Source of the DNA: Nitrospirota bacterium
Lineage (GTDB): Bacteria; Nitrospirota; Nitrospiria; Nitrospirales; UBA8639
Direction: 5' to 3'
DNA: 64,000 nucleotides
Assembly: GCA_003695915.1 (NCBI GenBank)
Contig: RFGF01000017.1
Coordinates: forward strand, 62,001-126,000
The notes beneath the pieces were generated by a model. It was given only the letters and a program-made list of their open reading frames with translations. It did not search any database and was not told the origin of the DNA. Each line of letters begins with the position of its first letter. Positions within the stretch are counted from its first letter, which is position 1. This document shows positions 47,530 through 52,705 of the stretch, one piece after another. The position numbers and the translations under genes were made by a program.

Positions 47530-47629
47530 CGCCGTTATTTGTTCTCGCCTGAATTGGTGAATCGATGGTCAGACCTGTCTGGAACGCCTTGCACAGATCT
47601 CCGACTCGGCGTTGGTTGCCACATCCCGC

Positions 47630-48304
47630 ATGATCGCCCTCAGCATCGTGCAACTCAGCAAAACCTACGGCCATTACCGTGTGTTAGACCAACTGTCACT
47701 TGACATTCCTTCTCGGCATTGTTTTGCCCTGTTCGGCCCCAACGGTGCAGGAAAAACCACGTTAATGCGAATTCTCGCCACCTTGACCCGCCCATCAAGC
47801 GGTCAATTTCGTATTTGGGGGTATGACGGCGTCACCGAAAAGGCTCGCGTTCGTCAACTCGTCATGTATCTGGCTCATGGAACACATTTGTACGATGACT
47901 TGAATGCCATCGAAAACCTACGGTTTTGCCTTGCGCTCCGCGGCATCATCCCTTCCGATTCCCAGATCAAACGCGCATTGGACAGGGTGCAGATCGGGCC
48001 GTTTGGACACATGCAGACTCGATACTTTTCGGCCGGGATGAAAAAACGGTTGGGGTTGGCCAAGGCCATCCTCGCACGTCCCAAGGTCTTGTTGTTAGAT
48101 GAACCCTACACGTCATTGGATGAACGCGGCATCGCCATTATGAATGCGTTTATTCAGGAAACGATCCAACGAGAGGGAGCCGTACTGATGACGACACACG
48201 ACCGAGAACATACGCGGCAAGTGGCCAATCACATGGGAATCTTGCATTCCGGCGTGCTTCGCACTTTCCCCCCACACGAGCTTTCAACCTATGTCGTTTA
48301 TTAA
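47630..48304 (+). CDS. ccmA: Haem exporter ATP-binding protein
   Basis: A 224-residue ABC ATPase with Walker A GPNGAGKTT, a signature of the form SAGMKKRLGLAKA and Walker B VLLLDEPY. Neighbours define it as CcmA of System I cytochrome c maturation, which powers release of haem from CcmE. ATG at 47630 lacks a clear ribosome site. The overlap of 14 bases with ccmB suggests coupled translation. Confidence 0.85.
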   Translation: MIALSIVQLSKTYGHYRVLDQLSLDIPSRHCFALFGPNGAGKTTLMRILATLTRPSSGQFRIWGYDGVTEKARVRQLVMYLAHGTHLYDDLNAIENLRFCLALRGIIPSDSQIKRALDRVQIGPFGHMQTRYFSAGMKKRLGLAKAILARPKVLLLDEPYTSLDERGIAIMNAFIQETIQREGAVLMTTHDREHTRQVANHMGILHSGVLRTFPPHELSTYVVY

Positions 48305-48968
48305 GGCAATTCGCTGGATGGTCTGGAAAGACCTGATCACGGAAATGCGCAGTCGGGAAACGCTTGTGTCCATGCTGTTTTTTGCCTTGATCGTGATCCT
48401 CGTCTTCAGTTTCAGTTTTTCCATGGATCACCAGGCTGCACGCGAATTACTCGCTGGCATTATTTGGGTGGCTTTCGCGTTCACGGGCATCATCGGACTG
48501 GGGAAATCGTTTTTGGCGGAATTGCACAACGACTGCCTTGAATATCTGCAAATGAGTCCTGCTCCCAAGGGGGCGATTTACCTCGGAAAAATGACCGCCA
48601 ATTTCCTGTTCATGTTGTTGGCCGAAGTCGTGCTGTTCCCGTTGTTCATCATCTTCTTCAATCTCGATGTCGTTGAAGAAATTTGGATTCTTCTGGTAGT
48701 ATTTTTGCTAGCAACAGAAGGTCTCGCGGCCGTCGGGACTTTGTTCTCCGCGTTGACGGTGCAAATTCGGGCTCGAGAAGTGATGCTCCCGGTCTTGCTC
48801 CTCCCGATGGTGATTCCTGTGATGATCGCCGCCGTGGAATCGACCAGAGGCGCATTGAATGGCGAGCCGTTCGCGCTGTACAGTCAATGGTTTCATCTTC
48901 TCGGCGTATTCGACCTCATTTTTACCGTCGTTTCGTATTGGTTATTCGAACTCATTCTGGACACCTGA
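48291..48968 (+). CDS. ccmB: Haem exporter membrane protein
   Basis: A 225-residue membrane protein with six hydrophobic segments. It begins WMVWKDLITEMRSRETL, the usual CcmB N-terminal loop, and has LLPMVIPVMIAAVEST near the C terminus. It forms the CcmAB transporter-like complex. It overlaps ccmA by 14 bases and precedes ccmC by 82. Confidence 0.88.
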   Translation: MSFIKAIRWMVWKDLITEMRSRETLVSMLFFALIVILVFSFSFSMDHQAARELLAGIIWVAFAFTGIIGLGKSFLAELHNDCLEYLQMSPAPKGAIYLGKMTANFLFMLLAEVVLFPLFIIFFNLDVVEEIWILLVVFLLATEGLAAVGTLFSALTVQIRAREVMLPVLLLPMVIPVMIAAVESTRGALNGEPFALYSQWFHLLGVFDLIFTVVSYWLFELILDT

Positions 48969-49050: not shown

Positions 49051-49785
49051 ATGATTCACCGCATTATCAAACAGATCCAACGCTATAAAGGATGGGTTGG
49101 TGCGGGGGCCGCGGTGTGCTTGCTGACCGGCACCTACCTTGGTCTTATCGCTTCTCCTCCTGACTACTATCAAGGCGAGGTCGTCCGGATCATGTATGTG
49201 CATGTTCCGTTAGCGCACACCGCCCTACTGGCCTATACCGTGGTCTTTGCTGGAAGCATCTGGTATCTCTGGAAGCGGGATCGGCTGATCGATAACATGT
49301 GTCATGCGGCAGCCGGGCTCGGATTTCTGTTTACAGGGTTGGCGTTGATCACCGGATCGATCTGGGCCAAACCGACATGGAATACGTGGTGGACATGGGA
49401 TCCTCGACTCGTATCTTTTGCGATCCTGTTCTTGATTCTGGCAGGATATCTCATGTTGCGCACATTCTTGACTGAAGATCCTGATCGTGAAAGCCGCTAC
49501 GCAGCGGTGCTGGCCATCGTCGGCTTTATCGACCTGCCCATTATTCATTTTTCCGTGGAATGGTGGAGGACCTTGCATCAACCCTTATCCATCTCTACTC
49601 GTGGAGTGAGTATCTCTGGGGAATTGCTCTTGCCTCTCACGATCATGAGTATCGGGTTTCACTTGCTCTTTGCGTATATGCTCATGGTCCGAACACAACT
49701 GTTGTATCTCGACGAGCTACTGCAAGCCAAAAAGGGGCGTCTGCTCACACAGATGCATCTTTCTCGCTCTCAAACAAGTCCATGA
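49051..49785 (+). CDS. ccmC: Cytochrome c maturation protein, haem handling
   Basis: A 244-residue membrane protein with six helices and the WWD-type motif WNTWWTWDPRLVS in the periplasmic loop, flanked by conserved His residues in YVHVPLAH and LPIIHFSVEWWR. CcmC passes haem to CcmE. The stop overlaps the next gene (ATGA). Confidence 0.92.
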   Translation: MIHRIIKQIQRYKGWVGAGAAVCLLTGTYLGLIASPPDYYQGEVVRIMYVHVPLAHTALLAYTVVFAGSIWYLWKRDRLIDNMCHAAAGLGFLFTGLALITGSIWAKPTWNTWWTWDPRLVSFAILFLILAGYLMLRTFLTEDPDRESRYAAVLAIVGFIDLPIIHFSVEWWRTLHQPLSISTRGVSISGELLLPLTIMSIGFHLLFAYMLMVRTQLLYLDELLQAKKGRLLTQMHLSRSQTSP

Positions 49786-50270
49786 CTGGGTTGTATATCC
49801 GTTGGGGCATATTCGTCTTACTGGCGATCATCCTCAGTATGCTCGTCGTTCGCCATTACGAAGCGCAGCTCGCGACCGTGAGTCCCTCGGACCTTATTCT
49901 GTCACCCTCTACTGGCTCATTCCGCGTCCAAGGTATGGTGAAAAGCGGCACACTGAAAGGGGACGTCGAGCAAGGAGCCGTGCAGTTCGAGTTAGTCGAT
50001 GATGCAGCGGCTATCCGCGTGCAGTACCATGGTCCTCCACCGGAAAATCTCCGAGAACTCAAAACCGTGGTCATGATCGGCACCTGGGATGCTACAGCGC
50101 GTGTTTTTCGCGCCCACGAGATTGCGCTAGTATCAAATTACGGTTTCGTGGCGAGCGCCTATTTGTTGACGTTCATTCCCATTGGCGTTTTCCTCTTCTC
50201 CATGAGTAGGAAAGTGGTGGTTTTGATGCAGGCAATCAAAGACTCCAAACTGTATGAACCAGAGGGCTGA
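49782..50270 (+). CDS. CcmE-like OB-fold protein with CcmD-like tail
   Basis: A 162-residue protein between ccmC and ccmE, where the tiny ccmD normally sits. An N-terminal membrane helix leads into a CcmE-like OB fold (SFRVQGMVKSGTLKGD...VQFELVDDAA...VMIGTWD). It lacks the haem-binding His: the spot aligned with AKHSEDY of CcmE reads ALVSNY. A second helix, FVASAYLLTFIPIGVFLF, followed by a basic-coil end resembles CcmD. It may thus join a haem-less CcmE domain to CcmD function. The start overlaps the ccmC stop, and ccmE follows directly. Confidence 0.7.
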   Translation: MTGLYIRWGIFVLLAIILSMLVVRHYEAQLATVSPSDLILSPSTGSFRVQGMVKSGTLKGDVEQGAVQFELVDDAAAIRVQYHGPPPENLRELKTVVMIGTWDATARVFRAHEIALVSNYGFVASAYLLTFIPIGVFLFSMSRKVVVLMQAIKDSKLYEPEG

Positions 50271-50274
50271 TCTC

Positions 50275-50730
50275 ATGGGAACGACATATAAAAAAACCGG
50301 CATCGTCGTCAGTATCCTTCTTGTAGCCGGGGCGCTTGGATATTTGGCGTTGGGGAACTTTGGCGATAATCTCGTCTATTTCGTCACGCCTTCCGAAGTT
50401 CGGGCTTTCACCCCGGATCATTCGCGAAAAAAAGTGCGGGTCGGCGGTATGGTCGTCAAGGGAAGCGTGCATACGCACTCGGAACCCGTGGGGTTGACCT
50501 TTGAGCTGACCGATGGCGCCGCGACGATTCCTGTCGTGTTTCGTGGGATCCCTCCGGATCTCTTTAAAGAAGGGCAGGGCGCCGTTGTGGAAGGCTATTG
50601 GAAAGATGGCAAAACCTTTTATGCCACGATGATTATGGCCAAACATTCCGAGGATTACATGCCCATTGAGTTGAAGCGAGCCGGTGTCCAGCTCCCCAAA
50701 AAAGATTTTATGAGAACGTTGTCACCTTGA
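50275..50730 (+). CDS. ccmE: Haem chaperone CcmE
   Basis: A 151-residue protein with one N-terminal helix and an OB fold. VYFVTPSE, VRVGGMVVKGS and FRGIPPDLFKEGQGAVVEG are family motifs. His124 and Tyr128 in AKHSEDYMP are the covalent haem attachment site. It holds haem in the periplasm and gives it to CcmF. AGAGGG precedes the ATG at 50275; an ATG at 50254 overlaps the previous gene. Confidence 0.93.
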   Translation: MGTTYKKTGIVVSILLVAGALGYLALGNFGDNLVYFVTPSEVRAFTPDHSRKKVRVGGMVVKGSVHTHSEPVGLTFELTDGAATIPVVFRGIPPDLFKEGQGAVVEGYWKDGKTFYATMIMAKHSEDYMPIELKRAGVQLPKKDFMRTLSP

Positions 50731-50755
50731 CGATCCAGGAATAGGGTCCCGTTTG

Positions 50756-52705
50756 ATGATTGTGGAACTCGGCCATTTCGCCGTCGTCATCGCGTTGGTG
50801 CTTTCCCTCGTGGGAATCGCATCAGCAGTGATAACGCTTCGCACCAGAAATGTCGATTGGGCTCGGGTCGGACGATCGGCTATCACACTGATCTTTGTCC
50901 TCCTCGCCATCGGCATGGGAGCATTGGTCACAGCCTTCATCACGCGGGACTTTTCGGTCGCGTATGTGGCGAACCATTCCAATTCCAAGTTGCCATTTTT
51001 CTACACGGTCGCCGCGGTTTGGGGCGGACACGAAGGCTCGTTGTTATTGTGGGTGTTTATTTTATCCGCATTCAGCACCTTGGCCGTCTGGCTTCATTGG
51101 CGAACCCAGCCGATGATCATGCCGTATTTGATCGGGGTTGAATCGGGGGTCATGTTCGGGTTCCTCGCGCTGATTATTTTTCTTTCCAACCCGTTTACTC
51201 GAATCTTTCCCGTCCCGCCGGACGGCAAAGACCTCAATCCCCTCTTACAAGATCCTGCCATGGTCCTGCATCCTCCCATGCTGTACATGGGCTATGTCGG
51301 CTTCTCAATCCCTTTTTCGTTTGCCATGGCCGCTCTCTTTTCTGGACGATTGGGCGAGGAATGGATCAAGGTCACCCAACGGTGGACCATTTTTGCCTGG
51401 CTGTGCCTGACCACCGGCATTCTTCTCGGTGGCTATTGGGCCTACTATGAACTCGGTTGGGGCGGCTACTGGGGATGGGATCCGGTGGAAAATGCGTCGT
51501 TCATGCCGTGGTTGGTGGGCACGGCCTATCTCCACTCGGTCCTGGTGCAGGAAAAGCGCAAGATGTTCAAAGTCTGGAACTTGTTCCTCATCATCGTCAC
51601 GTTTTCTCTTTCATTGATCGGTACCTTCTTGGTTCGCAGCGGGGTGTTGACGTCCGTGCACACCTTCGCTACGGACCCCGAACGCGGATTGTATATCTTG
51701 ATGTTCGTGGCGACGGTCATCGGCATTGCCTTCGGCACGTTGATGATGCGTTCCAATACCCTCAAAAGCCAAATCGTCATGGATTCACTGGTCTCCCGGG
51801 AATCCGTCTTTCTGTTCAATAATTTATTTTTTTTGGTCGCGACCGCCACGGTGTTTCTCGGGACGCTCTATCCATTGATCATCGAAACGCTCCAGGGCGC
51901 CAAAGTGACCGTCGGCCCTCCCTATTACAACACCGTCTTCATGCCCATCGCCATCGGCCTGTTGTTCTTGATGGGCATCGGTCCGTATATTCCATGGCGA
52001 AAAGCGTCGACGGCCGCCCTCAAAAAGCACTTTCAGGTTCCCACTATCGCGGCCATGGTGGGAACTCTGCTTCTACTCGTCACGGGCATTCGCAGTGCCT
52101 ATGCCCTAGCCGGCGCTTTCGTCGTCATCTTCGCAGCGACCGCGATAGTCCTGGACTTCGGTTCGATTGCGCGTCTCTATGCTCACCGCTATCACGTGAA
52201 TGTCGTCAAGGGGTTTGTGTCAGCGTTTGCCCACAATCAGCGGCGTTACTCTAGCCTGGTCACCCATTTGGGTGTCTTGGTGCTGGTCGTGGGGATCATC
52301 GCTTCTACCATTTATCAATCCGAGAAAGTCGTTTCGCTTCGAGTCGGAGACGAATTCATGATTGCCGGCTACCACCTCAAGCTCGTGAAGATCCACGAGG
52401 TAGAAGGACGAAACTGGATAGCCAAAGAAGGCGTCTTCGAGCTTTATCGCGATGGCGAGTTCCTTACCACGCTCCGGCCTCAAAAGCGCATCTACACGGA
52501 ATCGCAGACCCCGACGACCGAATCGGCCATTTACGCCATCAACCTGGGACACGTGTTTTTGACCATGCCCGACGTGTCTCCTGATGGCGAGGCCGTGGCA
52601 CGAGCGGTGATCAATCCGCTCATTTTATTGGTGTGGAGCGGCGGCGGCATGATGGGACTCGGCGTCCTGCTGAACCTCTTTCGCCCAAGGAAAAAAGACG
52701 CATGA
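50756..52705 (+). CDS. ccmF: Cytochrome c haem lyase subunit
   Basis: A 649-residue membrane protein with many helices and the WWD motif WGGYWGWDPVENASFMPWL near residue 230. HPPMLYMGY and LVRSGVLTSVHTFATDP carry the haem-binding histidines. CcmF ligates haem to apocytochrome with CcmH. A GG-rich site is upstream; the stop overlaps ccmG (ATGA). Confidence 0.95.
   Translation: MIVELGHFAVVIALVLSLVGIASAVITLRTRNVDWARVGRSAITLIFVLLAIGMGALVTAFITRDFSVAYVANHSNSKLPFFYTVAAVWGGHEGSLLLWVFILSAFSTLAVWLHWRTQPMIMPYLIGVESGVMFGFLALIIFLSNPFTRIFPVPPDGKDLNPLLQDPAMVLHPPMLYMGYVGFSIPFSFAMAALFSGRLGEEWIKVTQRWTIFAWLCLTTGILLGGYWAYYELGWGGYWGWDPVENASFMPWLVGTAYLHSVLVQEKRKMFKVWNLFLIIVTFSLSLIGTFLVRSGVLTSVHTFATDPERGLYILMFVATVIGIAFGTLMMRSNTLKSQIVMDSLVSRESVFLFNNLFFLVATATVFLGTLYPLIIETLQGAKVTVGPPYYNTVFMPIAIGLLFLMGIGPYIPWRKASTAALKKHFQVPTIAAMVGTLLLLVTGIRSAYALAGAFVVIFAATAIVLDFGSIARLYAHRYHVNVVKGFVSAFAHNQRRYSSLVTHLGVLVLVVGIIASTIYQSEKVVSLRVGDEFMIAGYHLKLVKIHEVEGRNWIAKEGVFELYRDGEFLTTLRPQKRIYTESQTPTTESAIYAINLGHVFLTMPDVSPDGEAVARAVINPLILLVWSGGGMMGLGVLLNLFRPRKKDA

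Follow-up and report, generated by a model that had tools for sequence, protein, structure and literature searches.

The ccm operon of the window

The window, the whole stretch of 64,000 nucleotides analysed here, carries on its plus strand a tightly packed System I operon in the order ccmABC-X-EFGHI, in which the gene that we name ccmX lies between ccmC and ccmE. The genes of the operon, and the segments of ccmX on which the argument turns, are as follows.

47612..48304, plus strand: ccmA (TIGR01189 above cut-off)
48291..48968, plus strand: ccmB (Pfam CcmB, E=2.2e-39)
49051..49785, plus strand: ccmC, the haem-handling subunit, with a start-stop overlap with ccmX (TIGR01191, 188.7 bits; ATGA overlap)
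49782..50270 (stop included), plus strand: ccmX, 162 aa, a CcmE-like OB domain followed by a probable CcmD helix (Pfam CcmE, E=1.9e-14; full-length relatives; AlphaFold2 mean pLDDT 87)
49785..49871, plus strand: predicted N-terminal membrane helix of CcmX, residues 2-30 (AlphaFold2 helix 2-30; Foldseek alignment to the CcmE of 8ce8 spans 127 columns)
49911..50126, plus strand: CcmE-type OB domain without haem tail, residues 44-115 (Pfam CcmE; strands 46-115; PDB profile matches 8ce8, 1sr3, 1j6q, 2kct)
50136..50252, plus strand: probable CcmD helix of CcmX, residues 119-157, from NYGFVASAY to the basic tail (AlphaFold2 helix 120-157; CcmD profile evidence from relatives)
50275..50730, plus strand: the true ccmE, encoding the haem chaperone, with HSEDY motif (Pfam CcmE, E=4.2e-32; NF009727 above cut-off)
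50753..52705, plus strand: ccmF (reading frames and syntenic order in relatives)
Downstream of ccmF, to 54647, plus strand: ccmG, ccmH and ccmI (reading frames and syntenic order in relatives)

The ATG of ccmX overlaps the stop codon of ccmC in the sequence ATGA, a spacing shared by 31 of the 49 loci compared, and the ccmE reading frame starts (50275) four bases past the ccmX stop. These features bear out the 162-residue protein that the first-pass annotation had placed between ccmC and the true ccmE, and because the gene is conserved across 66 genomes, we can rule out a chance open reading frame or a pseudogene.

A CcmE-type domain without the haem-binding tail

The first half of CcmX is related to CcmE. 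The Pfam CcmE model (PF03100) matches residues 44-115 with 54.2 bits against a cut-off of 24.6 (E=1.9e-14) and matches all 36 aligned members of the X family, although CcmX misses the cut-off of the NCBIfam CcmE equivalog (40.8 bits versus 126). Searched against the PDB, a profile of the X family finds CcmE entries, namely 8ce8 (5.7e-10), 1sr3, 1j6q, and 2kct. The AlphaFold2 model (mean pLDDT 87) predicts a helix at residues 2-30, OB strands at 46-115, and a second helix at 120-157, and its top Foldseek match is the CcmE of the CcmABCDE complex 8ce8 (E=4.7e-6). Over residues 1-115, CcmX would share with CcmE an N-terminal membrane anchor and an OB fold, and it shares the core residues R48, G51, F69, V80, G84, and G100; it differs in lacking the H/CxxxY haem tail, in having a second membrane helix added, and in being encoded in an operon that also encodes a true CcmE.

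The absence of the haem histidine, claimed in the first-pass annotation together with the CcmE-like OB fold, holds across the family. CcmX passes from the last OB strand straight into SNYGFVASAY, where the window's true CcmE has AKHSEDYMP, and the haem motif HxxxY (H/CxxxY; H130...Y134 in E. coli CcmE) was found after the OB domain in none of the 48 aligned X proteins. No conserved histidine or cysteine was found in the periplasmic part of the family either, and 9 of 49 proteins have no histidine there at all. MAFFT places H124 of CcmE opposite Y127 of X, with a gap, and a gap-free reading places it opposite S118; neither column holds a conserved histidine. One member of the family, a protein of 196 aa (L049:3143-3730, genome G363), carries two low-complexity insertions inside the OB domain.

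A CcmD-like C-terminal helix

Known CcmD proteins (PF04995, TIGR03141; PF20077/TIGR04391 CcmD_alt), the haem exporter protein D of System I, are free proteins of roughly 37 to 100 aa (PMC12077264), whereas in CcmX the corresponding segment ends a 162-aa protein that also has an extra membrane helix and an OB domain. The two are alike in their place between ccmC and ccmE, in having one predicted membrane helix and a basic tail, and in a tyrosine at what would be the periplasmic start of the helix: Y17 of E. coli CcmD lines up by eye with Y120 of X. In the AlphaFold2 model, the predicted helix at 120-157 comes after a periplasmic-type OB domain and leads into the basic tail.

Taken alone, the window's protein gives a sub-threshold signal. 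Its last 45 residues, compared with 18950 NCBIfam models, match just two, TIGR04391 CcmD_alt (E=0.092) and TIGR03141 CcmD (E=0.27), with scores of 11-13 bits that fall below the curated CcmD cut-offs; the best relative's tail tested also falls short of the cut-off (23.2 bits versus 25.95). The signal is carried by the relatives: TIGR03141 matches 7 of 36 X family members (best E=5.2e-4), PF04995 matches 9 of 36, and, when whole genomes were searched in all six frames, the hits of the CcmD models fell within X in five genomes (G185, G271, G119, G371, and G137). A second line of evidence comes from the Nitrospirota family f19, which has, at the place of the X tail in the operon, a free 53-residue reading frame (MKSNYEFIAAAYGATAVILGLYWWRMRARLSRLDGELK...) that reads NYEFIAAAY exactly where X has NYGFVASAY. 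Two copies of this frame were compared with TIGR04391, and one reaches the cut-off (24.2 versus 24 bits) while the other scores 23.2. An HMM of the X tail ranks the two short f19 CcmDs first and second (E=2.9e-5 and 1.2e-4) among 2234 six-frame segments from 20 loci, the helices of CcmB, CcmC, and CcmF included; a CcmD from family f2 and that of E. coli are among the next three, with non-significant E-values. Profile-profile alignment with hhalign gives the X tail E=2e-8 against the f19 CcmD and 8e-6 against pooled CcmDs, versus 0.14-0.39 for control helices or proteins; against standard CcmDs alone, with f19 left out, the match is weak (E=0.004, probability 8.5%).

Profile comparison thus links both halves of the protein, one to CcmE and the other to CcmD. 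For the CcmD-like helix seen in the first-pass annotation, the likeness stands through the relatives (family profiles, tail HMM, and the alignment to f19), while in the window protein alone it stays below threshold. From these comparisons, the tail is almost certainly a CcmD that became fused, that is, a CcmD by descent. Within the X family, mean identity is 55% for the CcmD helix and 40% for the OB domain, compared with 70% for CcmE and 68% for CcmC; the better conservation of the tail is what one would expect if CcmD function were what chiefly constrains the protein.

Distribution and descent

Among 396 genomes of the phylum, full-length X occurs in the family to which the window belongs, in several more families of its class, and in one family outside that class. 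Within the class, a search with a full-length profile finds it in 66 of 218 genomes, including 37 of the 39 in the window's family; genomes with X include Candidatus Manganitrophus and Nitrospira-related lineages. All the X loci inspected lie between ccmC and ccmE, the arrangement of the window recurring in related families, and in some genomes insertions part X from ccmE. In genome G081, ccmX and ccmE are separated by a transposase-like reading frame on the minus strand and a small endonuclease-like one, both assigned by eye (L053:3283-5112), and shorter gaps between the two genes are seen in several genomes of the same genus. Other Nitrospirota have a Cys-type CcmE (KCPSKY; L046:1436-1660 and L047:3857-4243), encoded close to ccmF, ccmG, and ccmH but in another gene order.

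In a phylogenetic tree, the X proteins cluster in a single clade separate from every CcmE sampled (SH-aLRT 100, from few columns and on a long branch), and the X tree broadly tracks the CcmE tree. Horizontal mobility of X was considered and rejected on this agreement and on the absence of a plasmid match. A contig scan with the single CcmX protein of the window as query gave no matches, and a collection-wide scan with one peptide pattern returned Nitrospirota and two records titled Nitrospinota; X may therefore occur more widely than in this phylum. Judged from sequence and gene order, CcmX is a class-wide variant of System I with a single origin, and not a new system.

Separate ccmD genes in genomes with and without ccmX

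A small ccmD elsewhere in the genome, which would have told against a fusion acting as CcmD, was looked for and not found. In the window's genome, the best match to PF04995 outside ccmX scores 18.1 bits (cut-off 25.6); it is a 151-aa reading frame beside gatA, which we rejected as a hidden free ccmD, the frame being unrelated. Searches of the same genome with TIGR03141 and TIGR04391 gave no match, and a separate CcmD above cut-off was present in none of the X genomes tested. Within the window's order, sampled genomes of families f2 and f14 that lack X and have a true CcmE carry an ordinary ccmD above cut-off. In the neighbouring family f2, most genomes lack X; those sampled that have System I have a divergent operon, with CcmC about 38% identical and an ordinary ccmD, and CcmD is likewise missing from the sampled f2 genomes that lack a true CcmE. 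One f2 genome (G403, locus L113) has an X-type operon, in which CcmC is 76% identical, and lacks a CcmD above cut-off.

The divergent f2 operon with ordinary ccmD (L038-L044 and L055) looks like an operon replacement. The f2 genomes without a true CcmE contain sub-threshold CcmE-like proteins (G195:C35:6036-6257, G309:C1:1735133-1735354, G143:C18:53608-53829, and G127:C12:65031-65252), which may relate to the nitrogen-cycling family NCBIfam NF052405, a weak match also of the window's CcmE.

What CcmX may do

We conclude, with a probability of roughly 0.8, that CcmX is the System I CcmD of these bacteria, its periplasmic N-terminus fused to a degenerate CcmE. In archaea, holo-CcmE is made without any CcmD (PMC9084895), so the absence of a free ccmD does not by itself prove that CcmX replaces CcmD. 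Together with the CcmD-like tail and the place between ccmC and ccmE, that absence supports the earlier suggestion that the fusion takes over CcmD function; that CcmX performs the job itself is a step that we infer, and on the sequence comparisons it very probably acts as the cell's CcmD. Titles and abstracts of the open-licence literature yielded no description of a CcmE-CcmD fusion.

The N-terminus of E. coli CcmD lies in the periplasm and its helix extends to the cytoplasm, and the protein is reportedly required for CcmE to dissociate after haem transfer; the OB domain of CcmE is put over the WWD loop of CcmC by AlphaFold and is seen above CcmB by cryo-EM (PMC10457321). The presumed host of CcmX is a complex like that of E. 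coli (CcmABCD/E; PDB 8ce8, 7f04), all other subunits of which are encoded in the window's operon and which CcmX would enlarge, for each CcmD, by an OB domain and a further membrane helix. CcmX would take the position of CcmD beside CcmC, with its helix N-out and C-in, and would do CcmD's job in loading and releasing CcmE. Because the OB domain is fused to the periplasmic end of CcmD, the geometry of the complex would keep a haem-dead CcmE domain near the WWD loop of CcmC, permanently tethered over the periplasmic face of CcmC and CcmB. There it could dock near the CcmE site as a pseudo-chaperone, shield or shape the WWD haem site when CcmE is absent, and help to displace haem-loaded CcmE. A role of the domain in the docking or displacement of CcmE is a tentative proposal, and just as tentative is the fuller picture of a haem-dead CcmE domain resident in the translocase, which may occupy or gate the haem site of CcmC between visits of CcmE and may drive release of the holo form.

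The most serious alternative is a sub-case of this reading and disputes only the mechanism given to the OB domain. CcmX would replace CcmD, the CcmD helix would do all the work, and the OB domain would be a mere spacer or stabiliser left by an accidental fusion. Its faster evolution than the helix, and much faster evolution than CcmE, would fit such a history, but all 66 class genomes with X have the domain (the search profile was itself full-length), and invariant X-specific positions are kept in it, for example K94 in LRELK, where CcmE has FKEGQ; we think a mere spacer less likely than not. Much less probable is a reading in which the second membrane helix is unrelated to CcmD and X, a paralogue of CcmE, regulates CcmE or serves as its decoy in bacteria that lack CcmD as archaea do. 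That the window's protein on its own gives a weak CcmD signal, and that archaeal System I works without CcmD (PMC9084895), could be read this way, but the X tail specifically matches real CcmDs and not other membrane helices, it sits exactly where f19 has its free ccmD, and X and CcmD are mutually exclusive across the genomes tested. Equally improbable is a second haem carrier that binds haem through other ligands, such as Y120, Y127, or M141, and hands it on between CcmC and CcmE, since, for all that Y127 and M141 are invariant, Y120 is nearly so, and the Y17C variant of E. coli CcmD crosslinks haem (PMC12077264), the periplasmic part has no conserved histidine or cysteine, the haem tail is missing, M141 sits in the part of the helix nearer the cytoplasm, and the candidate ligands H38, M41, and H43 of E. 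coli CcmD are dispensable (PMC13141917).

If CcmX is the CcmD of these bacteria, it bears on the mechanism by which CcmD frees haem-loaded CcmE from CcmABC. That CcmD occurs in nature joined to a copy of CcmE without the haem-binding tail suggests that CcmD acts beside the site where CcmE docks, and CcmX would be a ready-made tool for probing the release of holo-CcmE. The fusion would also explain an apparent gap in annotation, since profiles would report no ccmD and two genes with a CcmE domain in these genomes.
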